Assembly: GCA_020850015.1 (NCBI GenBank)
Contig: JADZFF010000054.1
Coordinates: 1-53,422 of the forward strand
Length of the DNA: 53,422 nucleotides
DNA from: Bdellovibrionales bacterium
GTDB lineage: Bacteria; Bdellovibrionota; UBA1018; JADZFF01
Direction of reading: 5' to 3'
Shown here piece by piece: positions 7,522-22,543 of the stretch. The notes beneath the pieces are model-generated. The model was not told the DNA's origin and ran no database searches. It worked only from the letters and a program-made list of their open reading frames with translations. Position 1 is the stretch's first letter; each line of letters begins with the position of its first letter. The position numbers and the translations under genes were made by a program.

Positions 7522-7563
7522 TCGTAACCAACAACATGCACCGGTAAGGTGGGAGTCCCTATC

Positions 7564-9393
7564 ATGATTCAGATTTCCAAAGCTCAGGGGTGGGCTGCGG
7601 GCTTGACGGCGATCACGGTGGCAGCAACGGCTGCTCCGGCGATGGCCGCTCCGAGCGCCGCGGATGTGGCGATGTGGAACCGTTACTGTAATCGCGACGG
7701 AAGCGTGCGGATCAACTCCGCCGAGATCCCGAAGCCGAATTACACGAACGCGCTCGTGAAGGGCGTGGTGGCGAAGCTGAACCACCTCGACGTGTCGAAT
7801 GAGTCGGACGAAGGCGCGCAGCGCACGTTCTACTTCTACGGCGACATCGAAAAAGTATACGGAGTGTCGAGCTCGCCCACGGGCGCGAAGCCGGCCGGAA
7901 CGCCTGCTGACGTGAATGCCGTCTCGGCGGCCTTCCTGACGATCGCCTGCGGCGAGTTCCGCGACAACCCCAAGATGCTCGAGCGCAAGCTCAAGTGGGC
8001 GAAAGACATCGTGGTCGTGCCCGAGCAGCGCCAGGACTACGACCCCTCGAAGCCGGTGTGGCCGCAGGTCACGGGCCCGGGCTACCGCAAGCTCCTGGAA
8101 ATGAGCGAGACCCTCTATTCGCTCCGCCAGCGTGAGCTGGGCGCGGCCGCGAACGCCAGCCACACGCTCGATCAGCGCGTGGTGGACGGCATCACGAACT
8201 GCGAATACCGCTACATCCTGAAAGAGTACCTCGCGGGCGACAACGAGCTCGAAGCCTGGGGCGGCCCTGAGTCGTTCAACGCGTACAAGCGCGGCCTGGC
8301 CGAGTTCGAAGCCGGCGACGAGTGCTCGCAGGACGAGAAGGACCACTACATCGAGTTCCGCGGCGACGGCAATTTCAAGGCCCAGTCGCTCGAGTCGAAC
8401 GCCTTCATCTGGAACACCCGCGTGTTCTCGAAAGGCTGCGAGACGCCGAAGAAACGCAAGAACGTCGCCGGGAACATCCTGACCGACAAGGACTGCGAGA
8501 ACTACTTCAAGGCTCCGTGGCAGTCCCGCTATGAGCTGACCAAGCAGGGCGCGCTCCGCCTGTTCTTCTACCCCTCCACCCCCGAGATGGAGCGGGTCAT
8601 GAAGGCCTACCAGCGCGGGTCAGGCGTGCTCGTCCTCATCACCGAAGACCTCTCCGGCGACGGCGTGGCTGACATGGTGGTGATCGACCGCAACCAGGCC
8701 GGCGGCCGGAAAGTGCTCGAGCTCCGCGCTCAGGCCGAGGGCGGCAACCCCGCTACGTCGGCTAAGCTGCGCAAGGAGATCTACGGCTACATCCTGAAAG
8801 CCGCCTCCGAGCAGATCACGCTGCCCGCGTCCTACAACGCGGCGGTGGCCTCCTTGGCCAGCGCCACGATCACGTCCACCGACGGCATCAAGCTCGTCAC
8901 GAACGTGGACTCGGCCTGGAAGCCGGAGTACCTGAGCCGCCCCGACAAAGGGCTCTCGCTGGTGTTCCCGGACAAAGCCAAAGCCTGGGATCGCCTGGCC
9001 ACGGTGCTGGATCGCCACACGGACTGGTACATGATCGACATGGCCAACCTGAAGATCGGCTTCTACCAGCCGACGTACTCGCCTTGGGTGGCGTCGAGCT
9101 ACTACATCCACGAGTCGGACGCCTTCACGCGGCCCGGCTACGCGATGGGTCAGCCGGGCGACGGGCACCGCCACTGGATGTATGTCCAGAAGGTGCGCAA
9201 GCCGAATTGGTTCAAGGCTGAGACGATGAAGGCCGACTGGCCGAAGAACATCGATCTGCTGAACACCTGGTTTGACGAGACCACGTTCTCTCGCTCCGGC
9301 CTGGGCGCCAGCGAGAAGGCCTGGGATCGCTTCGGATCCGCGGACCACACCGAGATCGAAGCCAACCTCTGGCTGTTTGAATCGGAAGAATAG
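7564..9393 (+). CDS. Large secreted protein of unknown function
   Basis: I do not recognise this 609-residue protein. It starts with a clear signal peptide (hydrophobic 11-27, cleavage probably after AMA at 28). The mature part is rich in Trp, Tyr and charged residues and has several Cys (for example 42, 129, 213, 254, 292, 311) that could pair in the periplasm or outside the cell. Residues 362-370 (DLSGDGVAD) look like a calcium-binding loop of the dockerin/FG-GAP type. The frame opens at a GTG at 7549, but the ATG at 7564 is preceded at good spacing by AAGGTGGGAG, so I start there. It follows the secreted EEP-fold gene, separated by an inverted repeat, and ends before a strong terminator. 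Confidence 0.75.
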   Translation: MIQISKAQGWAAGLTAITVAATAAPAMAAPSAADVAMWNRYCNRDGSVRINSAEIPKPNYTNALVKGVVAKLNHLDVSNESDEGAQRTFYFYGDIEKVYGVSSSPTGAKPAGTPADVNAVSAAFLTIACGEFRDNPKMLERKLKWAKDIVVVPEQRQDYDPSKPVWPQVTGPGYRKLLEMSETLYSLRQRELGAAANASHTLDQRVVDGITNCEYRYILKEYLAGDNELEAWGGPESFNAYKRGLAEFEAGDECSQDEKDHYIEFRGDGNFKAQSLESNAFIWNTRVFSKGCETPKKRKNVAGNILTDKDCENYFKAPWQSRYELTKQGALRLFFYPSTPEMERVMKAYQRGSGVLVLITEDLSGDGVADMVVIDRNQAGGRKVLELRAQAEGGNPATSAKLRKEIYGYILKAASEQITLPASYNAAVASLASATITSTDGIKLVTNVDSAWKPEYLSRPDKGLSLVFPDKAKAWDRLATVLDRHTDWYMIDMANLKIGFYQPTYSPWVASSYYIHESDAFTRPGYAMGQPGDGHRHWMYVQKVRKPNWFKAETMKADWPKNIDLLNTWFDETTFSRSGLGASEKAWDRFGSADHTEIEANLWLFESEE

Positions 9394-9570: not shown

Positions 9571-9646
9571 GGGCCTATAGCTCAGTTGGTAGAGCGCTTC
9601 AATGGCATTGAAGAGGTCAGCGGTTCGAATCCGCTTAGGTCCACCA
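9571..9646 (+). tRNA. tRNA-Ala (GGC anticodon)
   Basis: The 76-base sequence folds into a full cloverleaf. The acceptor stem GGGCCTA pairs with TAGGTCC and contains the G3:U70 wobble that is the main alanine identity element. The D arm (GCTCAGTTGGTAGAGC), the anticodon stem CTTCA/TGAAG with loop ATGGCAT (anticodon GGC) and the T arm AGCGG TTCGAAT CCGCT are all regular. CCA is encoded at the 3' end. No integrase or duplicated tRNA end is nearby, so it does not seem to serve as an attachment site here. Confidence 0.97.
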
Positions 9647-9728
9647 ATTCTCCAAGTGATCACCCCGGCCGGAATCTCCGATATCACCACGACTCCAGGC
9701 GGCGTTCATGCCATCGAGCGATCCCCTT

Positions 9729-9757
9729 GGAATTCAACCGCGTGCCGCGGCGATTCC
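9729..9757. other. Small inverted repeat in phosphatase leader
   Basis: GGAAT (9729-9733) with ATTCC (9753-9757), and CCGCG (9738-9742) with CGCGG (9746-9750), form a nested imperfect hairpin upstream of the App1-type gene. The rest of 9647-9807 holds no gene; no convincing -35/-10 pair was found there. Confidence 0.3.
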
Positions 9758-9807
9758 AGAGTCGCAATTCTTTACAGAAACAGTTTGGTTTGCTAAAGGT
9801 TGGACGC

Positions 9808-10674
9808 ATGAAACAAAGGGGTCGGAGCCTTTTCTGCGTAACGGTGCGTTTACGCACCGTTACGCAGAAAAGGCTCCGACCCCTTTTTGTTCTCGCCTTG
9901 AGTGTGGCGGCGCCGAACGTCTGGGGTGCCGAGCCCTTTGTCGTTGTGAGCGACATCGACGATACGGTGAAACTCACGAACGTCATGAACAAGGCCGAGG
10001 CCGTGAAAAACGGGTTCTTCGGAAAGAAGACCTTTCTGGGCATGGCCGAGCTGTATCAGGCCTGGCTCAGGGCCTCGGGGCTCGCGAATACGCCGGATGA
10101 GCGGTTCATGTACTTCTTGTCGGCCTCGCCGACTTTCCTGCGGTCGGGGCTTTGGAATACGCTGATCACGCTCGGCGGATTCCCCGATGCGCGCTTGGTG
10201 CTGCGGCACTGGGTGGCCCAGCCCTCGACCCACGACTACAAGATCGGCTCTCTTCGTAATATCGCAAACCGCTCGGCGCACGAGCTCGTGCTCGTAGGCG
10301 ACGACACCGAGCACGACCCCGAGATTTTCCTGGAGTTCGCGGGGATGCAACCGGGAAGGGTGGGGGAGGTTTGGGTCCGCCGGAACCTGAACCGACCGCT
10401 GCCCCCCGGCGCGCGCGGGTTCTACAGCGCTTTTGATCTGGCGCTCGCGGAGCTGGAATCGGGGCGGATCGAGCCTCAGGACGTTCTGGCCGTGGCGGAA
10501 CGGATCCTGAGCGCCGGCCGTCCGGACCTGCTGTTCCCGGATTTTTCCTATTGCCCGATGACCGAGCTCATCGACCTGCCCGCGGGGCCCGTGGAGCTGG
10601 CGAACCCGGCCGTGAGCGAAGCGCGCCGCGCGGTGGTGGACTACGTGATCGGCGTTTGCGTCGGGCGCGAGTGA
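9808..10674 (+). CDS. App1-type (DUF2183) phosphatase, secreted
   Basis: The 288-residue product resembles the catalytic domain of App1-type phosphatidate phosphatases of the HAD superfamily. Motif I is VVVSDIDDTVKLTNV (Asp49/Asp51), motif II SASP (105-108), the HAD lysine is probably Lys145 (YKIGSL), and motif IV is VLVGDDTEHDPEIF (162-174). A hydrophobic stretch LFVLALSVAA (26-35) ending in WGA indicates a signal peptide. The N-terminus is odd: residues 3-27 are encoded by the 72-base palindromic repeat. Without it the start would read MKLVLALSVAAPNVWGA, a textbook signal peptide. The ATG at 9808 has AAAGG 8 bases upstream. Known relatives act on phosphatidate; the substrate here is inferred. 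Confidence 0.82.
   Translation: MKQRGRSLFCVTVRLRTVTQKRLRPLFVLALSVAAPNVWGAEPFVVVSDIDDTVKLTNVMNKAEAVKNGFFGKKTFLGMAELYQAWLRASGLANTPDERFMYFLSASPTFLRSGLWNTLITLGGFPDARLVLRHWVAQPSTHDYKIGSLRNIANRSAHELVLVGDDTEHDPEIFLEFAGMQPGRVGEVWVRRNLNRPLPPGARGFYSAFDLALAELESGRIEPQDVLAVAERILSAGRPDLLFPDFSYCPMTELIDLPAGPVELANPAVSEARRAVVDYVIGVCVGRE
9815..9886. repeat. 72-base palindromic repeat, copy 2
   Basis: This copy has outer arms AAAGGGGTCGGAGCC... and the inverted ...GGCTCCGACCCCTTT, meeting at a central TTTA. It differs from copy 1 mainly at the centre, where base pair 9845:9856 is T:A instead of C:G. It lies wholly inside the coding frame of the App1-type gene, adding exactly 24 codons with no stop codon. Confidence 0.9.
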
Positions 10675-10687
10675 AGGGCCGCGAAGG

Positions 10688-12358
10688 CTACTTGCGCTTC
10701 GGGGCCGCAGCAGGCGCGCCCGCGGCACGCCCCGCCGACCCGGCCGTGACCTGGTTGTACTGCACGGCCCAGGGCAGGGACTCGACGTTGTTGCCGCGCA
10801 GGTTCGACTTGTAGCGGAAATCGATTCGCTGGAAGAGGCTGATCGTCTTGTCCTCGAAGATCTGGTCGTGGGTCTTGCCCGCGATCTTCGCGCCGAAGTC
10901 GATCACGTTTGACTCGCCTTCTTTGCCGTCTTTCTTGCCGCCCAGTTGGCCCATGAGGCCTTCCATCATGCCGGCGAGATCAGGGCCCCCCGAGCCGCCG
11001 CCGCCCGAACGGCTGCGTCCACCGCCGCCTTGGAATGTCGAGCCGGCGGCAGCGGCCAGCTCGCTTGCGTTGTCTTTCAGGCCCTGTTCGGCCAATCCAA
11101 TGAGGCTCGCCGCGGTTTCTCCGGTGAGCAGCCCGGCCATTGCCGCGCTCGCCGCGCCGCTCGGGGACGAAGACGCGGTGGAATTGAGGAAGCTGCGTGC
11201 GTCCATTCCCTTTGCCCGCTTGAAGGCATCGTTGACATCCGGACGGTTCACGAAGCTGTTGCCCGCAGTGGCCGCGGATCCCGTCTCGTCCACGCAGAGG
11301 GACTCGCTCCCCGCACCTGAGCAGCGTCCGCCCTCGGCCTCATCACCACGTTTCTTGCCTCCGCCCTTTCCGCCACCATTCATGCCTCGCGCGCCGCGTT
11401 TGGCGCCGGCATTGGCCTCGAAGGCTGTCACTTCCGTATTGGCCGACTTAATGTCCGCGTTGAATGTGCGAGCGCCATCGAGGTTGCTCTCGATGCTTTT
11501 TGCGGCGTCGACCGCGCCCTTTCGCTTCGCGATATAGGTGAGCAGATGGAGAAAGCTTGTACCAAAGAGAAAGACCGCCGTGGCCGTGGAGCAGGCGGCG
11601 TCGGCAGCTTGGGTTGCGCCATCATCGGAGGCCTGAACGGCCTGGGTGAATCCCATGCCGGCGCCCCCGATCAGCATTGCCGCCCCAGAGATGATTCCGG
11701 TTCCCATTGAAAGGCCGTTTGCGACTTGGGTGGCCGTACTCGAGAAGGATGACTGGACAGCAGCATTCCAAATTCCGTCGGCCACAGCGGCAAGTGCCCC
11801 GCCGATCGAGCAGGCGAGTGCGAATGCCTGCCCGATGGGGACCAGTACGGTAGCCTGGGGGCCGGACGTGGCTACGCAGATGATCGCGGCCGTGAGACAG
11901 ACCGCAAAGAGAGCGATGTAGAAATAAGAGACGCCCTCAAGGTAACCGACTGCCTTGTCGGCGTTCACGGCCGCTCCGCAGTAGGTGATCTTTTTTTCGT
12001 AATAGGTCTTGTAGGAGCTGTCCGTTGCAACTTCCCCGCTTTCGTCAACGACGTCCCCGCAGACCTCCAGGATTTCAGGCATTTGGCTGCCCCGATAGCC
12101 GAACCCATCCGCGAAAAACTGTTCGACCGTGTAGTCTTCGGCCTGCGCGGTAGACCAAGTCCAGGGCTCGAAAGCGGAGCCTGGAGCCCCAAAGTCCGAC
12201 GGGCGCCAAGGCGCGAAGGTCACGGCCAGGATGAGCAGCGAGTAGAGTCCAGTCCTGCCGGCGAGCGCGAGCAGCGGACGGATCGATGAGCGGAGCTTCA
12301 GGTTACGCACGTTTCCCCCTAACTGAACGCCGAGAGGCCGAAGAACCCGGGTCCCCAC
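10688..12358 (-). CDS. Polytopic membrane orphan with shared C-terminal tail
   Basis: This 556-residue protein is not a family I know. After a basic N-terminus it has a signal-like helix (about 36-50), a Cys-containing exported segment (75-140), and four hydrophobic helices at about 144-163, 169-195, 215-236 and 259-276. Then follow a Gly/Lys/Ser-rich region and a C-terminal segment (443-522) that is clearly related to the end of the upstream gene's product: both have GGGGR, a Leu-rich G-x-L-x-x-L stretch, an I-x-D-[FY]-G motif, and I-x-[LF]-[FQ]-x-R-I-x-x-x-Y. The layout loosely resembles VirB6/TrbL-like channel proteins, but no secretion genes are nearby. The GTG start has AAGGAG 5 bases upstream, overlapping the upstream TAA, so the two are translationally coupled. 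Confidence 0.75.
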   Translation of the reverse strand: MGTRVLRPLGVQLGGNVRNLKLRSSIRPLLALAGRTGLYSLLILAVTFAPWRPSDFGAPGSAFEPWTWSTAQAEDYTVEQFFADGFGYRGSQMPEILEVCGDVVDESGEVATDSSYKTYYEKKITYCGAAVNADKAVGYLEGVSYFYIALFAVCLTAAIICVATSGPQATVLVPIGQAFALACSIGGALAAVADGIWNAAVQSSFSSTATQVANGLSMGTGIISGAAMLIGGAGMGFTQAVQASDDGATQAADAACSTATAVFLFGTSFLHLLTYIAKRKGAVDAAKSIESNLDGARTFNADIKSANTEVTAFEANAGAKRGARGMNGGGKGGGKKRGDEAEGGRCSGAGSESLCVDETGSAATAGNSFVNRPDVNDAFKRAKGMDARSFLNSTASSSPSGAASAAMAGLLTGETAASLIGLAEQGLKDNASELAAAAGSTFQGGGGRSRSGGGGSGGPDLAGMMEGLMGQLGGKKDGKEGESNVIDFGAKIAGKTHDQIFEDKTISLFQRIDFRYKSNLRGNNVESLPWAVQYNQVTAGSAGRAAGAPAAAPKRK

Positions 12359-12367
12359 CCGAACTCC

Positions 12368-14731
12368 TTACGGCGCGCCGACGATGCCCTTGCGCCCACG
12401 ATCCTGGTAGGCCGTGTGAATCCGTTCGAAGATGTTCACGCTGCGGTCGAGCAGGGATTCGCCCACCCCGGCCGGAGCGCGGCCCCCGTAATCGAGGATG
12501 CCGTTCTTGTCCTCTTCGCCCTTCTGGCCCGGCAGGAGCTGGCCCAGGAGGCTGTTGAGATCGATGCCCGAGTTGCCGCCGCCCTTGCCGCGTCGGCCGC
12601 CGCCGCCGCCGAAGGTCGCGCCCGATCCGTAGCCCGCGCCGCGTTCGTTCAGGCCGGCGTAGGTGGCCGCGTCGGAGTCGCCCTTGTCATCGCCCGAGGG
12701 GCCGGTGCCGCCTCCGCCCAAGCCGGGCGCGCCGCCGCCGCCTCCGCCGTTGTCGGCGCCGGGCGTGAGATTGGAGGCCTCTGGGCCGGTCTCGGTGAGG
12801 TCATCCTCGGTGTTGCCGTTGCCGAAGCCCTCGCCCAGGTCGGCCACTTCTTCTTCCTTCTGTTCATCGTCGTCCTGCTCGGCCGCGAAGTTGTCGCCGC
12901 CGCCGAAGCCCGTCACTCCGGGGCCGCCGCGGTCGCCCGTGCCTTCGTTGAAGGCGAGGGGGTCGAACTCCGTGTCGATCGCCGGGGCGTCGGTGTCCGG
13001 AGACTGGAACTTGTCCGCGAGCTCGTTGTACTTCGCGGCCATAATTCCCTGCGCCACCGCCGCGCCCGCGCGGGTAGCCATGCCCATGAGTTGGGTGAAG
13101 AGGCCCTGGCCGGCCTCGGAGGCGCCCTTTTGCTGCTCCTGAATGACGCCGCCGGCGATGCGGTCCACATCCTGCTTCATCTTGCCGCCTTTGTCTTTGA
13201 AGCTGGCAATACGGTTGCTGTAGATCTGCTCGCGGCAGTTCCGTTGCGTGGCCGCGCGCACACGAGGGTGCTCGGCCGTGCCCTCGAGGCCCTTTTCATC
13301 GACCCACCGGCCGTTGTTTTGTACGAATCCGAACTGGTTGAGGTTGCGCATGATCTTGCGCTCGGAAATGGCGAGTTGGTTTTCGTCGGTGCATTCCTCA
13401 CCATCGGCCGCGCGCATGTGGCTGAGGGCGTACCCATCGTTCAGGTTGATTCCCTTGTCATTCATGCGTTCCGCAAGAGTTTTGCGGTTGCCATCGTAGG
13501 TACGGTAGAAGACCTGTCCTTGTCCTTCGGCACCAATGTCGCCTTCGTTCCCGTTGCCGGTACGCCCGGCAAGCCTCGCCAGCTCGCCACGGTCAACGTC
13601 GTCACCCGTCTTGCTCGAGATCAGGGCTTTCATGTTCTTGGCGTCTGTAGTTGCGTCTTTCTCGTCCGAGGAGTGTTGACCTAGTCGGGCCCCCATGGCG
13701 ATAGCGCCAATGGCATGTACACCGGCCACCACCCCCTGCTGGATAGCAGCGGCTGACGCCTGTGCAGCGGCCGCCCGATAGACATCCGCCTGCGTCTTGC
13801 CCGGTTGGTTCGCCTCCATCGCCGCCATTTGTCCACTTGCGGCCACTACCTGGCTCCCTACGCCGTCCGACATCTGGGCAGTAACGGTTGCGGCCGTATT
13901 GAGCCCCTTGGTGGTGCTCGCGGAGGCGTAGCCAAGGGCATCGTTTGAAGCCTTGTTGGTGTTTTCCTCACGGCCAGCCATGCGCAATTTGGTTTCGCCT
14001 TCGGAGAGAAGTCCCTGAGCGCCCTCGGCCGCGGCGGCGTCGCCTGCCTTTTTGTTTTCATCGGGCCGGCTCCCATCGGCGCCTCGGAGGCCCGCCGCCT
14101 CGACTTCTGCCTGCCAACGGGCCACGATGTCGGCGGGCTTGGTGCCGTCGGAGATGGCCACCAGATCGGCGTTCGTCAAATCGACGGAGCGGCTGCTGTT
14201 GCTGCCGACTTGGTCGTCGGCCGCACGGCCTCGCGCACCGAAATTTGCGGTGTTGCGAGACTCCAACCAGCGTGGCGTGCCATCGAGCGTGAGGGGAGCC
14301 ACATCGTCACTTGCGCGCGACTGATCAGCACAAAAGACCTTCAGATTGCCGCGGGAATTCAGGCCTCCGCAACCTTCAGCGATGCCCTCTGCGGTGCCTA
14401 CGACACTCGGAAACTCGGTAGCGCTTTGGCAAAGGCCGTCGGTGTGGCCGTTCATGAGGTTCGTGCGTTCGGCTTTGCTCATGCACGCGGCGCCGCCCGG
14501 AACCCCTCGCACTTGAGCAGGCTCGACCGTGCAGGGCACGCGGGCGAACTGTCCGGTGTCATTGCCGGTGCGTTGAGCCCTAGGGGCATCTGCCGAAGGA
14601 GCTTGGCAATCCGTTGCTGGGGGGGTGGCAGGTGCAGCGGCCAATGCCCTGTTCGGCAGCAACGCGACGGCAGGGAGACCCACGAGCGCGAGCAAAACAC
14701 ACAGATTCGATTTGGATCGGAAGCCAGTCAT
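12368..14731 (-). CDS. Large exported orphan with shared C-terminal tail
   Basis: The 787-residue product starts with a signal peptide (core LCVLLALVGLPAVALL, cleavage near ALA at 32). The Cys-containing N-terminal third is followed by an Ala/Gln-rich helical part (about 270-400), a charged globular part (400-600), an acidic stretch of Asp/Glu, and long Gly-rich linkers (from about 610). The last 80 residues (708-787) match the tail of the downstream membrane protein, ending SVNIFERIHTAYQDRGRK. I recognise no enzyme motif. Size, low-complexity linkers and pairing with a polytopic partner suggest a structural or secretion-type cell-envelope complex; this is inference. A strong promoter lies at 14794-14822. 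Confidence 0.75.
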   Translation of the reverse strand: MTGFRSKSNLCVLLALVGLPAVALLPNRALAAAPATPPATDCQAPSADAPRAQRTGNDTGQFARVPCTVEPAQVRGVPGGAACMSKAERTNLMNGHTDGLCQSATEFPSVVGTAEGIAEGCGGLNSRGNLKVFCADQSRASDDVAPLTLDGTPRWLESRNTANFGARGRAADDQVGSNSSRSVDLTNADLVAISDGTKPADIVARWQAEVEAAGLRGADGSRPDENKKAGDAAAAEGAQGLLSEGETKLRMAGREENTNKASNDALGYASASTTKGLNTAATVTAQMSDGVGSQVVAASGQMAAMEANQPGKTQADVYRAAAAQASAAAIQQGVVAGVHAIGAIAMGARLGQHSSDEKDATTDAKNMKALISSKTGDDVDRGELARLAGRTGNGNEGDIGAEGQGQVFYRTYDGNRKTLAERMNDKGINLNDGYALSHMRAADGEECTDENQLAISERKIMRNLNQFGFVQNNGRWVDEKGLEGTAEHPRVRAATQRNCREQIYSNRIASFKDKGGKMKQDVDRIAGGVIQEQQKGASEAGQGLFTQLMGMATRAGAAVAQGIMAAKYNELADKFQSPDTDAPAIDTEFDPLAFNEGTGDRGGPGVTGFGGGDNFAAEQDDDEQKEEEVADLGEGFGNGNTEDDLTETGPEASNLTPGADNGGGGGGAPGLGGGGTGPSGDDKGDSDAATYAGLNERGAGYGSGATFGGGGGRRGKGGGNSGIDLNSLLGQLLPGQKGEEDKNGILDYGGRAPAGVGESLLDRSVNIFERIHTAYQDRGRKGIVGAP

Positions 14732-14793: not shown

Positions 14794-14822
14794 ATTGTCT
14801 CACTGCGCAAAATCTGAGTCAA
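14794..14822 (-). promoter_or_regulatory. Sigma-70-type promoter for the paired orphan operon
   Basis: On the minus strand, TTGACT (14817-14822) and GACAAT (14794-14799) are separated by exactly 17 bases. That is 5 of 6 and 4 of 6 matches to the -35 and -10 consensus. It sits 63 bases before the ATG of the 787-residue gene. This is the best promoter seen in the window. Confidence 0.6.
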
Positions 14823-14870: not shown

Positions 14871-15908
14871 TCAACGAAGTGTGTGTAAGAAATAGTCCCG
14901 CAGGGCGTCGGCGAGACCGCGGGAGAAGCCGGGCAGATGCTCGCGCTCGAGCGTGGCGAGCGGCGAGGGCAGGCCGGTCATGAGCAGGCGGTGGAAATCG
15001 TCGGCCACGCCCACGATCTCGCCCAGGCGGTTCACGCGCGAAACGCCGAAATGCACGGGGAAGCCCCGAAGGTCGCGCCGCTCGTGGTGCGAGCGCACGA
15101 TCTCCACGACGGCCGTTTCCAGCCCCGCGGCCTGGAGCAGCTCGGCGCCCACGGCCGGGTGCGTGCGGTAGAGCGCGCGCAGGGACTCGGGCATGCGGCC
15201 CTCGTCCTCGGTCTGGACCTCCACGGGCATGCGGTGCAGCCCGATGTCGTGGAGGAGCGCGGCGACTCCCACCACCTCCACGGCAAGGTGGTCTTCGATG
15301 CCCATCGCTTCGCACACGAGCGCGGCCACGAACGCCGTGCCCACTCCGTGCTCGCAGGCGGCGGCGTCGGCGAAGAATGCCTGGAGCGACTCGCGGGAGC
15401 GCAGATCCAGGCGTTTCACCACGCGCTCCACGTTGCCGAGAAAACGATGGGCCTCCGCGAGCTGGGCGTCGTTCACGCCGCAGGCCCGAAGCGCCGAGGC
15501 CAGCGCCTCTCCGTGGGCGGCGACGGACTCCAAGGCTGCTCCGGCGGTGGGAGCGGGGCCCGACGAGGGCGACGCACGAAGGACCTCAGCGGCGAGCGAG
15601 GCGCCTTCGCTCAGCGCGCGCTCAAGCTCCGCGCGCCGCACGTGGAACCAGCGCACGCCCTTGGCGGCGTAGCGGGCGAGCTGCTCTTCGGTGAGGATGT
15701 CTCCCGAGCGCAGCACCTTCACGTAGTGTCCCGACGAAAGCCTGAGGTGCACGTCGTGTGGGCAGGCCGTGCGGGTGAGCAGCGCCGAAGCCACCACCGG
15801 CACGAACTCGCCGTCCGCGCGCGATACGATCTCATGCGGGAGAGACAGCTCCACCCCAGGCGGGCTCGCCGTCACTTGGGAATCTTTTTTTCGGGCGGCA
15901 CCGCTCAT
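14871..15908 (-). CDS. HD-GYP-like protein with degenerate GYP motif
   Basis: The 345-residue protein has an N-terminal domain (about 20-95) with EFVPVVASALL and VKVLRSGDILTEEQLARYAAKG, of the kind placed before HD domains in predatory and related bacteria. The HD-GYP-like domain spans about 185-330, with the metal-binding HDIG at 220-223 and a second His cluster SHHERRDLRGFP near 273-284. In canonical cyclic-di-GMP phosphodiesterases the last part reads HHE-x-x-D-G-x-G-Y-P; here Gly and Tyr are changed, so activity may be altered. AAGGAG lies about 11 bases before the ATG. It is the neighbour of a second, intact HD-GYP protein at 19845-21092. Confidence 0.78.
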   Translation of the reverse strand: MSGAARKKDSQVTASPPGVELSLPHEIVSRADGEFVPVVASALLTRTACPHDVHLRLSSGHYVKVLRSGDILTEEQLARYAAKGVRWFHVRRAELERALSEGASLAAEVLRASPSSGPAPTAGAALESVAAHGEALASALRACGVNDAQLAEAHRFLGNVERVVKRLDLRSRESLQAFFADAAACEHGVGTAFVAALVCEAMGIEDHLAVEVVGVAALLHDIGLHRMPVEVQTEDEGRMPESLRALYRTHPAVGAELLQAAGLETAVVEIVRSHHERRDLRGFPVHFGVSRVNRLGEIVGVADDFHRLLMTGLPSPLATLEREHLPGFSRGLADALRDYFLHTLR

Positions 15909-19839: not shown

Positions 19840-19850
19840 GCCCGTCAGGC
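19834..19850. terminator. Stop-to-stop hairpin between convergent genes
   Basis: GCCTGA (19834-19839) and TCAGGC (19845-19850) pair across a 5-base loop; each arm contains the stop codon of one of the two converging genes, which are only 5 bases apart. No T-run follows on either strand. A second such arrangement lies at 3384-3401. Confidence 0.4.
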
Positions 19851-21092
19851 GGCCTTGGAATCCACGACCTGCTTCGCCTGCTGACCCACGGCCTGCGCGG
19901 CCTCCGAGAGCGCGTTGGGGTCGGTTGCGCTCTTAGTCCAGCGCATCACCTCGGCGAAAACCTCGGGGTTGAAGAACTCGGGGAAGCTGCGCTTGCGTTC
20001 GAAACCCTCGATGATCTGCAGGGCGTCCTTGAGCGTGCGCCTCTGGCCGTCCCATTGGCCGGACGAGATGGAGTCCACGAACTCGGACATGGCCACGAGT
20101 TGGGCGACGTCGTCGAGCTTGAAGCCCCTCAGTCCTTCGGGGTACCCGCTTCCGTCGAATTTCTCGTGCGTCTGCCCGATGATCGCGCGCACGCGCTCGG
20201 GCACGTCCGGAGCGTGGCGGGCCAGGAGGGCGAGCCCCGCGGGAACGTGCCCGCGGTACTGGAGGTGCGAGGCGTCGTCCATTTCCACCCAAGGGCGGCG
20301 CGAGGCTCGGCCGTCCACCTGGCAGAGTCCGATGTCGTGCAGCAGCCCGGCCATCGCGAGATCGGCCACGAGCTCCTGGTCGATGCGGCCGAAGGCCATG
20401 GCGAAAACCACGGCATAGGTGGCCACGTTCACGGAGTGCTCCAGATCCGGGTCGATGTCGGCCATCTTCCAGATCTCCTGCACGAGAGAGGTGGCGGAGG
20501 CGCTCGTGCCCTCGAGCACGTCCTGGATGATCTCGCGGGCCTTCTCGTTGCGTTTCACCTGGTCGCGGGCGCTGTCGGCCTCGCCCAGTTCCTCGAGCAC
20601 CCCTTGGGCGATCTGCGCCACCACGGCTTTCTTCGCCTCGGGCGGGACTTCCGGCGCGTTCATCGTGGCCGCGATGAGAGCCCCCTCCTCGGTGCGGGGC
20701 GGGGGGGCCTCGACAGGGAGAGGGCCTGTGTCCGCGGGGGCTGGCGCCGCCGTCGCCGCGGGAGGCGGCGCAGGGGATTCGGGGCGCGACGGAGCTTCGA
20801 CGGCGGCCTTCGGCGCCTCTGGTGCGGGCGCAAGTGGCGCCTCGGATTCGCTGAGGCCCATGTAGCTGAGGTAGGCGGCTTTCTCGGACTTGTGGATCCA
20901 GATTCGGTTCAGGCTCCGGCCGGAATAGCGTTCCAGGAACTCCGCGCTGAGCGTCTCGCCGAGGTTCTTCCAGAGAATCAGGTGCCGGTTCTGCGGGAAA
21001 TACAGGTACAGGTGGAATGGGATCTCGCTGTCGACGCGAAGCTTCGAGAACTCCGCCGGGAAATACTCCGCGATGTCCTTGGAGGGGATCAT
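19845..21092 (-). CDS. HD-GYP domain protein
   Basis: The 415-residue protein has an N-terminal domain (about 1-75: FSKLRVDSEIPFHLYLYF, then LSAEFLERYSGRSLNRIWIH), an Ala/Pro-rich linker (about 80-135), and a complete HD-GYP domain. The metal-binding HDIG is in AGLLHDIGL, followed by a His in GHVPAGLALL and the hallmark THEKFDGSGYPEGLRG. HD-GYP proteins of this form degrade cyclic di-GMP, so an active phosphodiesterase is likely. The frame reaches back to a GTG at 21158, but the ATG at 21092 overlaps the upstream stop codon as ATGA, typical of coupled translation, and is preferred. It is the second gene of a two-gene operon. Confidence 0.86.
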   Translation of the reverse strand: MIPSKDIAEYFPAEFSKLRVDSEIPFHLYLYFPQNRHLILWKNLGETLSAEFLERYSGRSLNRIWIHKSEKAAYLSYMGLSESEAPLAPAPEAPKAAVEAPSRPESPAPPPAATAAPAPADTGPLPVEAPPPRTEEGALIAATMNAPEVPPEAKKAVVAQIAQGVLEELGEADSARDQVKRNEKAREIIQDVLEGTSASATSLVQEIWKMADIDPDLEHSVNVATYAVVFAMAFGRIDQELVADLAMAGLLHDIGLCQVDGRASRRPWVEMDDASHLQYRGHVPAGLALLARHAPDVPERVRAIIGQTHEKFDGSGYPEGLRGFKLDDVAQLVAMSEFVDSISSGQWDGQRRTLKDALQIIEGFERKRSFPEFFNPEVFAEVMRWTKSATDPNALSEAAQAVGQQAKQVVDSKAA

Positions 21093-22543
21093 CCCGCGGA
21101 TCTCCCGGCCCGTGCCTGCTTGAAGGCCGAGAGCAGGCGCGCGAGCGTGCGCATCCACTCGGTTTCGCGCTTGGCGAGCGCTTCCATGCGGCGTTTCAGG
21201 TTCGCGGGCTCCACGTCCGAGGCGGGGGCCGCTCCGGCCTCGAGCGCGCGCAGCCGTTCGGTGATGTCGCGCAGCTCGAGCTCGGCCTCGTGGTAGTGGT
21301 GCTCGAAGGCGCCCAGCAGGCCCTCTGCGTCCGGCGGGGGAGGCGGCGCCGCCGTGCTCACTCCCCCCATGCGCAGCTCCTGGATGAGCTTGTCGCGCTC
21401 GAGGAGCTGGCGCTTCAGGCCGGTCAGCCTGTCGATCGCCTCGCGAAGCATCTTGTCCTTGCGGCGCGAGGTTTCGGCGTCCTCCGCGCCGCCCGGTGTT
21501 TGCGCGAGGACGGGCATGGCCTTGAGGCCGGACTCCGGCCCTGGGGCCTCGAAGGGCACCTCGAGCACGTCGGAAGGAGCCACGGGCTCGATCCAGAGCG
21601 TGCGCGCGTGGCGGGGAGGAAGCTCGGAGGCCGCGGACTTGAGGAACCCGGCCACGATCTCCACGTCCTGAGTTTCCTGCACGGCCTGAACACGGAGGAA
21701 ATCAGCGTCCCTCAGCAACACCTGCGCGGCCGAGCGGAGCGGAGCGCGCGAGATCTCGCGGTTCGGCCAGAAGCCCTCGATGAGCTTCTTGATGTGGCTG
21801 CCCTTCAGGGAATAGAAAAGGCGCAGGGTCAGGGTCTGGGAGTCGGCCGCGAGCTGGAGGCAGGCTTTGGGTACGCCCACGGCGCCGGCGGATTCGGCCT
21901 TGCCAGGGCCCTCCTCGAACACGAGGCTCCAGAGCGCGCCCAGCGCCCCGCGGATCGCGCCGAGCCGCGGGGCCCAGGCGTTCTCTCCGAGCTCGGGAAT
22001 CGACGACAGGGCGTCGAGCCGCGGCCCGAGCGGCGTGCCGGCCGGCCAATTTTCCGTGTATACGTTCGCTTGCGGGGAGACGAGCGCGCGGATCCCCGTC
22101 CTTCCGCGCTCCACGCACAGGGCCTGCATCAGGTGCGCGGCCTCCGCGGCCGTGACCTGCGAGAGATCCAGCAGCAGCAGCCGCTGGTACGGGGGGATCT
22201 CCTGGAGGGATTCCGTATCGAGGGGTTCCCCCGCGTAGCCGGCGAACACGGGTCCGCCCACGCGCGCGAGTCCGAAGGCACCCTCGATGCGGGTCCACTT
22301 CAGGTACAGGAACCAGGGCACGAGCACGAGCTGGTAGACGTTGGCCGAAAGTTTTTCGAGGACGTTCTCCTCTTCCTCGGTCTCCCAGACGTCGAGCGTG
22401 GCCGTGCGTTTCAGAATCGTGAGCGCGGCGCTCAGATGGGCCCGCCGCTCGCGGGTGAGCCGGCGATCCACGACGAACGCCACCCTGGGCTTGCGTCCCG
22501 CGCGCCCTGAAGTCGTCGAAGATGGAGAAACGCCTGGGTTCAT
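21089..22543 (-). CDS. Conserved-looking hypothetical with coiled-coil tail
   Basis: I do not recognise this 484-residue protein. It starts with a flexible Ser/Pro stretch, then an alpha/beta-looking region (RVAFVVDRRL, VYQLVLVPWFLYLKW, RLLLLDLSQVTAAEA). A middle section resembles DUF4388/PATAN-like wording (LRLFYSLKGSHIKKLIEGFW). The last 130 residues are charged heptad-like helices (about 375-480), likely a coiled coil. It is the first gene of an operon with an HD-GYP protein, so a signalling role is plausible. The frame opens at 22654, but the ATG at 22543, with GGGG a few bases upstream, leaves room for the divergent kinase promoter. Confidence 0.6.
   Translation of the reverse strand: MNPGVSPSSTTSGRAGRKPRVAFVVDRRLTRERRAHLSAALTILKRTATLDVWETEEEENVLEKLSANVYQLVLVPWFLYLKWTRIEGAFGLARVGGPVFAGYAGEPLDTESLQEIPPYQRLLLLDLSQVTAAEAAHLMQALCVERGRTGIRALVSPQANVYTENWPAGTPLGPRLDALSSIPELGENAWAPRLGAIRGALGALWSLVFEEGPGKAESAGAVGVPKACLQLAADSQTLTLRLFYSLKGSHIKKLIEGFWPNREISRAPLRSAAQVLLRDADFLRVQAVQETQDVEIVAGFLKSAASELPPRHARTLWIEPVAPSDVLEVPFEAPGPESGLKAMPVLAQTPGGAEDAETSRRKDKMLREAIDRLTGLKRQLLERDKLIQELRMGGVSTAAPPPPPDAEGLLGAFEHHYHEAELELRDITERLRALEAGAAPASDVEPANLKRRMEALAKRETEWMRTLARLLSAFKQARAGRSAG

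Follow-up and report, generated by a model that had tools for sequence, protein, structure and literature searches.

The Locus and the Gene Pair

Two adjacent genes on the minus strand of a Bdellovibrionales contig (JADZFF010000054.1, assembly GCA_020850015.1; all 53,422 nucleotides were analyzed and are called the window here) encode exported proteins that end in related C-terminal tails. This shared tail is the subject of our analysis. Gene A (12368-14731, minus) encodes a 787-residue exported protein with a signal peptide, long coiled helices, a Gly-rich linker and the tail, and is documented by its open reading frame and translation, by orthologues in the order and by an AlphaFold2 model. 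Gene B (10688-12358, minus) encodes an exported protein of 556 residues that is helical, has conserved Cys residues and ends in the same tail; it is likewise documented by its reading frame, orthologues and an AlphaFold2 model. An earlier, sequence-only reading of the window had placed two reading frames of these lengths back to back at this site, and this is borne out.

The export signals of both proteins were read from sequence. In A, the signal peptide (residues 1-31; 14639-14731, minus) is of the classical type, with a basic start, a hydrophobic core in which a hydrophobic segment is detected, and an ALA site. B starts with a GTG codon 9 nt past the stop codon of A, and its Shine-Dalgarno sequence TAAGGAG (12364-12370, minus) overlaps that stop. 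An equally good start exists at the GTG at 12310, which has its own AGGGGG Shine-Dalgarno sequence and gives a protein of 540 residues. Upstream of A, one sigma-70-like site (TTGACT-17-GACAAT; 14794-14822, minus) was found where 0.2 are expected. The good promoter of the earlier reading is thus retained as a candidate, being a match to the consensus only.

The Shared Tail of A and B

A raw BLASTP comparison of A with B is weak (32% over 78 residues, E = 2.3). The tails were compared with the Gly-rich lead removed and on the remainder only. The Smith-Waterman score of the two tails is then 74, above the maxima of 2000 shuffles each made globally (49), within 10 residues (58) or within 6 residues (65). 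The profile-profile score of A tails against B tails from the window and its relatives is 60.1 (E about 1e-12), compared to maxima of 17.1 in 150 column permutations and 24.6 for permutations within 8-column blocks. Furthermore, B of the window scores 34 bits against a hidden Markov model (HMM) of tail A built without the window; several thousand locally shuffled tails reached 24 at most. A chance or compositional likeness of Gly-rich C-termini would agree with the insignificant pairwise BLASTP result taken alone; shuffles, permutations and relatives rule this explanation out, and we assign it a negligible probability. Hence, at the level of sequence, the shared tail of A and B is real, and the earlier statement that the last ~80 residues of both proteins are related holds.

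In A, the tail is preceded by a flexible Gly-rich linker (12572-12769, minus) that is predicted to be disordered and includes Y701, the most conserved column of the protein. The tail itself (residues 721-787; 12371-12571, minus) is the most conserved stretch of A and consists of a first helix H1 (IDLNSLLGQLLP), the segment ILDYGGRAPAG and a second helix H2 (LLDRSVNIFERIHTAYQ), and matches the tail of B by profile. Its core helix IFERIH..Y (residues 767-780; 12392-12433, minus) contains a Phe that is invariant in A6 and is predicted as a helix by AlphaFold2 with a predicted local distance difference test (pLDDT) score of 75-87. The tail of B (residues 458-556; 10691-10987, minus) follows a Gly-rich linker (10988-11035, minus) recognized from its sequence and a pLDDT < 50. 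It comprises PDLAGMMEGLMGQL, VIDFGAKIAG and EDKTISLFQRIDFRYK, followed by an extension like that of C, a third protein introduced below. The core helix of B, SLFQRIDFRY (residues 507-521; 10796-10840, minus), has a pLDDT of about 86-90, and among 47 sequences F509 is invariant and R515 nearly so. In both proteins, the tail helices are thus predicted with a pLDDT of 75-90 amid disorder.

We define the tail family by its core pattern, its distance to the C-terminus, a Gly-rich linker and an exported carrier. The shared module spans roughly 65-100 residues, and four classes, A to D, are distinguished by carrier. The core consensus, [SN]-[IL]-F-x-[RIK]-[IV]-x-x-R-Y, lies about 65 residues past a Tyr-Gly element that starts the Gly-rich linker. 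In A and B of the window and in the class consensuses, the core is found no more than about 70 residues from the C-terminus, on an exported protein and behind a Gly-rich linker. The ungapped core consensuses are LDRN.NIFeRIH.tYQ.K (class A), EDrdISLFdRVt.RY (class B), gSIFQIVS.Rl (class C) and SLFKiVErRY.kKa..W (class D). The distance from the core Phe to the C-terminal end is 12-67 residues, in A always 16-23, and Tyr-Gly precedes the core Phe by a median distance of 64-69 residues, whichever of the four classes is considered. The Tyr-Gly pattern is present in about 37-57% of the proteins; compared to shuffles, this is an enrichment of 3 to 6 times in B, C, and D and of about 2.4 times in A. 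Placed in a tree, which has few columns and many open forks, 110 tails sort by class, requiring 5 changes compared to 58.7 with shuffled class labels. The class-specific consensuses and the sorting of the tree suggest that the tails are old and vertically kept rather than recently copied, and the classes probably split before the radiation of the order.

One Tail on Unlike Bodies

Full-length profiles of A and B have only the tail in common (62 columns), as the earlier reading had supposed in calling their architectures otherwise different. C, the product of a third gene present in relatives, is homologous to B along its full length (hhalign E 3e-20, 376 columns). For D, encoded elsewhere, the overlap with A, B, and C is limited to about 20-40 columns of the tail (E 5e-7 to 1e-5). 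Kinship among the bodies of A, B/C, and D is not detectable by profile comparison, while their tails are related.

The AlphaFold2 models are of medium to low overall confidence (pLDDT 63 for B and 54.5 for A). They are predicted to be alike in having three long helices (pLDDT about 80-95), disorder and a confident short tail-core helix. In A, the model contains a long helical hairpin (residues 271-375; 13607-13921, minus; pLDDT about 90) and a long helix (residues 489-576; 13004-13267, minus; pLDDT 80-90). In B, a hairpin of two long helices (residues 114-216; 11711-12019, minus) carries conserved Cys residues, and C127, C154, and C183 are among the top conserved columns. A third long helix (residues 258-316; 11411-11587, minus; pLDDT > 90) follows the conserved C256. 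B had been described as a membrane protein of four or five helices. In that form the description is rejected: beyond the signal peptide only two transmembrane-like segments of the window's B pass the threshold, 20/38 B orthologues have none at that threshold, and AlphaFold2 predicts long bundle helices. Moderately hydrophobic segments occur in part of the B and C orthologues, and none is found in A beyond its signal peptide.

A, B, and their tails have no match in Pfam, NCBIfam, or the Protein Data Bank (PDB), and a Foldseek search of both models against the PDB gave no significant hit. A YukC/EssB match to the A profile (0.004) was judged to be coiled-coil noise.

Further Carriers of the Tail

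The sequence-only reading had proposed searching with the tails alone over this genome and its relatives for more carriers, and such a search finds them. The combined tail HMM matches 47/58 relatives, at 1-6 places in each positive genome, and identifies four tail proteins in the window's own genome: A, B, and two encoded elsewhere (G000:C31 and G000:C168). The former (G000:C31:3633-5684, L092_04) has 683 residues and fuses an exported protein, D0, to the tail-bearing D. D0 and D are two adjacent genes in most relatives, where D has about 300 residues and is a lipoprotein by pattern in 7/18 cases and in more by eye. A gene of the Lgt family lies near the fusion. The fourth carrier (G000:C168; L189:5112-6785, minus) has 557 residues with a Gly/Ala-rich, glycine-zipper-like stretch, lies near and convergent to type II secretion genes of the gspK-L-M type, and has hardly any orthologues. 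In two very long proteins, L113_02 (1851 residues) and L152_06 (1270 residues), the end resembles C and bears the tail, and the N-terminal part is a large coiled-coil or repeat region.

Phylum-wide, matches to the A-tail HMM are weak (E 1e-5 to 1e-2 per genome) and lie at the C-terminal ends of proteins of 350-880 residues, which mostly have export signals by eye. The A-like protein of another family, f9, is a true relative of A (hhalign E 5e-20). In this family, the A-like and B-like tail genes flank a VanY-type D-Ala-D-Ala carboxypeptidase and a thioesterase-like gene (L096, L100, L102, L103, L110), and a YiiX/C92-type amidase adjoins them; these neighbors hint at peptidoglycan work. A tail-bearing gene also lies near ahcY both in f9 (L098, L099, L101) and in the window's order (L177, L183, L186, L187). 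An orthology of this f9 protein with D has no support beyond the tail, the bodies not being detectably homologous, and was rejected. D0, D, and the f9 homologues have no Pfam match. Outside the phylum the tail was looked for by one pattern scan of 84,980 genomes, in which only metagenome-assembled genomes (MAGs) of the Bdellovibrionota type matched.

Conservation and Surroundings of the Operon

The host belongs to the Bdellovibrionota, and the named matches are MAGs of Oligoflexia and Bdellovibrionales. Conservation of the pair was followed at 35 distinct A loci of the order, all from Bdellovibrionota MAGs, with genes called by a simple script whose starts and some frames may be off. The gene downstream of A on the same strand is B in 31/35 loci and C in 2/35, such that the A-B(-C) order is retained in 33/35. 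At one of the two remaining loci B follows one doubtful gene call further on; the other has no resolved neighbor. The spacing between A and the next gene varies between -23 and +63 nt. In several relatives the genes overlap by 4 nt, in support of translational coupling of A and B, which had been proposed from the Shine-Dalgarno sequence lying over the upstream TAA. A and B therefore form a true operon, and the question of whether their homologues co-occur side by side is answered by adjacency in nearly all loci. Genomes that seem to lack the pair often have a fragment near a contig end or are incomplete assemblies.

In many relatives the pair adjoins a housekeeping block that in the window lies about 29 kb away on the same contig (43851-53420, plus) and comprises gcvH, a HisKA protein, a miaB-like radical SAM/TRAM gene, a hexapeptide protein, guaB, guaA, a small membrane protein, and dnaE. 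As a functional partner the block was dismissed, its association being one of synteny and not of function. Closer to the pair are genes for two HD-domain proteins, one located 139 nt upstream of A in the same orientation (14871-15908, minus) and the other at 19845-21158 (minus). In family f5 a PilZ protein with a degenerate HD domain flanks the pair. On the other side and convergent with the pair are genes for an APP1-type phosphatidate phosphatase (9586-10674, plus), which adjoins it, and for an exported orphan protein of 614 residues (7549-9393, plus). A plasmid or viral origin of the stretch was considered and discarded, as no match was found.

A Possible Docking Module

The recurrence of carriers, the adjacency of the pair and the contrast of related tails with bodies lacking detectable kinship make a common docking or sorting signal the natural reading of the tail. 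We consider it an even call that A and B, together with C, D, and the fourth protein, are Sec-exported envelope proteins sharing a C-terminal docking module that gathers them on a common partner. Export signals in the sequence, the shared tail, the conserved operon and the presence of the tail on bodies without detectable kinship are observed; that the tails bind, that they have a partner in common and where in the envelope the proteins sit are what we infer. The module would begin with Tyr-Gly and a flexible linker; a short amphipathic helix (DLxxLLxxFLP) and a turn (F/Y-G-x-R-x-PAS) would follow and lead to the amphipathic core helix ([SN][IL]F-x-R-[IV]-x-x-R-Y). As for the bodies, those of A and B would be bundles of long helices and those of D small parts that are lipid-anchored or contain Cys. 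On its flexible Gly-rich arm, the core helix might reach and bind either a partner common to all or the tails of the sister proteins, and a small fixed set of proteins could in this way be kept together, whether in the periplasm or at the outer membrane.

Several points weigh against this interpretation. The analysis points to no particular docking partner, machine or receptor, the confidence of a helix predicted in a single chain is no proof of binding, and conservation of a C-terminus could also reflect recognition by a protease or an export machine. Moreover, three genomes of >90% completeness (G002, G020, G033) gave neither A nor B, so that the A-B system is either not universal or was missed in them. 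Of the earlier proposal that the tail serves as a docking or sorting signal, the part that stands is the occurrence of the tail on further unlike exported proteins; no machine or receptor was found with it, and the interpretation remains plausible and unproven.

The main rival to docking is that the tail is a sorting or secretion signal, whereby a dedicated machine would move the proteins across or onto the outer membrane after Sec export, possibly removing the tail. Its C-terminal position on unlike exported proteins, behind a flexible linker, is as expected for such a signal, and one carrier in this genome adjoins the gspK-L-M genes. This neighborhood has little weight because that carrier has almost no orthologues. 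No machine is consistently co-localized with the carriers, and no C-terminal signal model of NCBIfam matches. Four carriers here and 1-6 in each positive relative are also few for a general route, and such low numbers fit the parts of one assembly better than general sorting cargo. We therefore regard a sorting signal as unlikely, if a serious contender. A remnant of an old whole-gene duplication would need no special common partner: A and B would descend from one exported helical protein whose bodies diverged while the tail changed most slowly. B and C clearly are such paralogues, in the models of A and B alike, about three long helices are followed by a disordered linker and a tail helix, and tandem duplication would leave the order A-B-C. 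However, the bodies of A and B lack profile similarity, D and the fourth protein carry the tail on quite different bodies, and slow change of the tail would still require a functional reason; the duplication account appears rather improbable to us.

Finally, A, B, and C might be a tripartite alpha-helical pore-forming assembly of the SmhABC, AhlABC, or ClyA kind, to which the tail would be an added assembly helix. Three observations point this way: the operon has three genes for exported proteins with long helices, some of the B and C proteins contain a moderately hydrophobic hairpin, and SmhB, AhlB, AhlC, ClyA, and MakA recur among the Foldseek matches of the two models. Yet these matches are insignificant (E >= 0.9, probability <= 0.25, template modeling score <= 0.37), come from models of partly low confidence and are mixed with axoneme and chemoreceptor coiled coils. 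Hydrophobic segments at the threshold are lacking in A beyond its signal peptide and in the 20/38 B orthologues mentioned above, and most toxins are not retained in single copy and in synteny throughout an order. A pore-forming assembly is thus very improbable.

The docking reading can be extended to an undescribed envelope targeting or assembly system throughout the Bdellovibrionota, in which a dedicated receptor would read the C-terminal helix of unrelated exported proteins and lipoproteins and build a single structure from them. We see this wider system as conceivable and on the doubtful side. The Bdellovibrionota are the phylum of the best-known bacterial predators, and many proteins of their envelope biology have no domain annotation. 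With one tail connecting at least four of them in a single genome, and retained order-wide and weakly phylum-wide, isolated hypothetical proteins become one testable system, and the tail peptide offers a handle to fish for its partner.

Comparison With Known Systems

A literature search returned nothing relevant on a described tail or operon of this kind. The closest paper (PMC12034629) reports AlphaFold-predicted complexes of Bdellovibrio hypothetical proteins and, in the portion available, treats other operons.

LPXTG, PEP-CTERM, and GlyGly-CTERM proteins end in a hydrophobic segment and basic residues. Together with the type IX C-terminal domain, these families resemble the A/B tail in being short C-terminal homology regions on unlike exported proteins after a flexible linker. 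In contrast, the A/B tail has no transmembrane segment or basic end, few carriers per genome, and no recognizable enzyme or translocon. Consistently, no hydrophobic 19-mer is found in the tails of the window's A or B, and 50 tails searched against Pfam and NCBIfam, and A and B of the window likewise, gave no match to the curated C-terminal signal models above noise. With the tripartite alpha-pore-forming toxins (Smh, Ahl) and ClyA, the operon shares a tandem arrangement of long-helix proteins and weak recurring Foldseek matches. It differs from them in its signal peptides, conserved Cys residues, tail and order-wide synteny, and lacks a significant fold match. The C-terminal peptide of SSB, a docking peptide on a disordered arm, provides a further parallel. 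The tail described here has no sequence kinship with SSB and, unlike it, is shared by several exported proteins, but the design is the same: a flexible Gly-rich arm that ends in a short, highly conserved C-terminal binding element.

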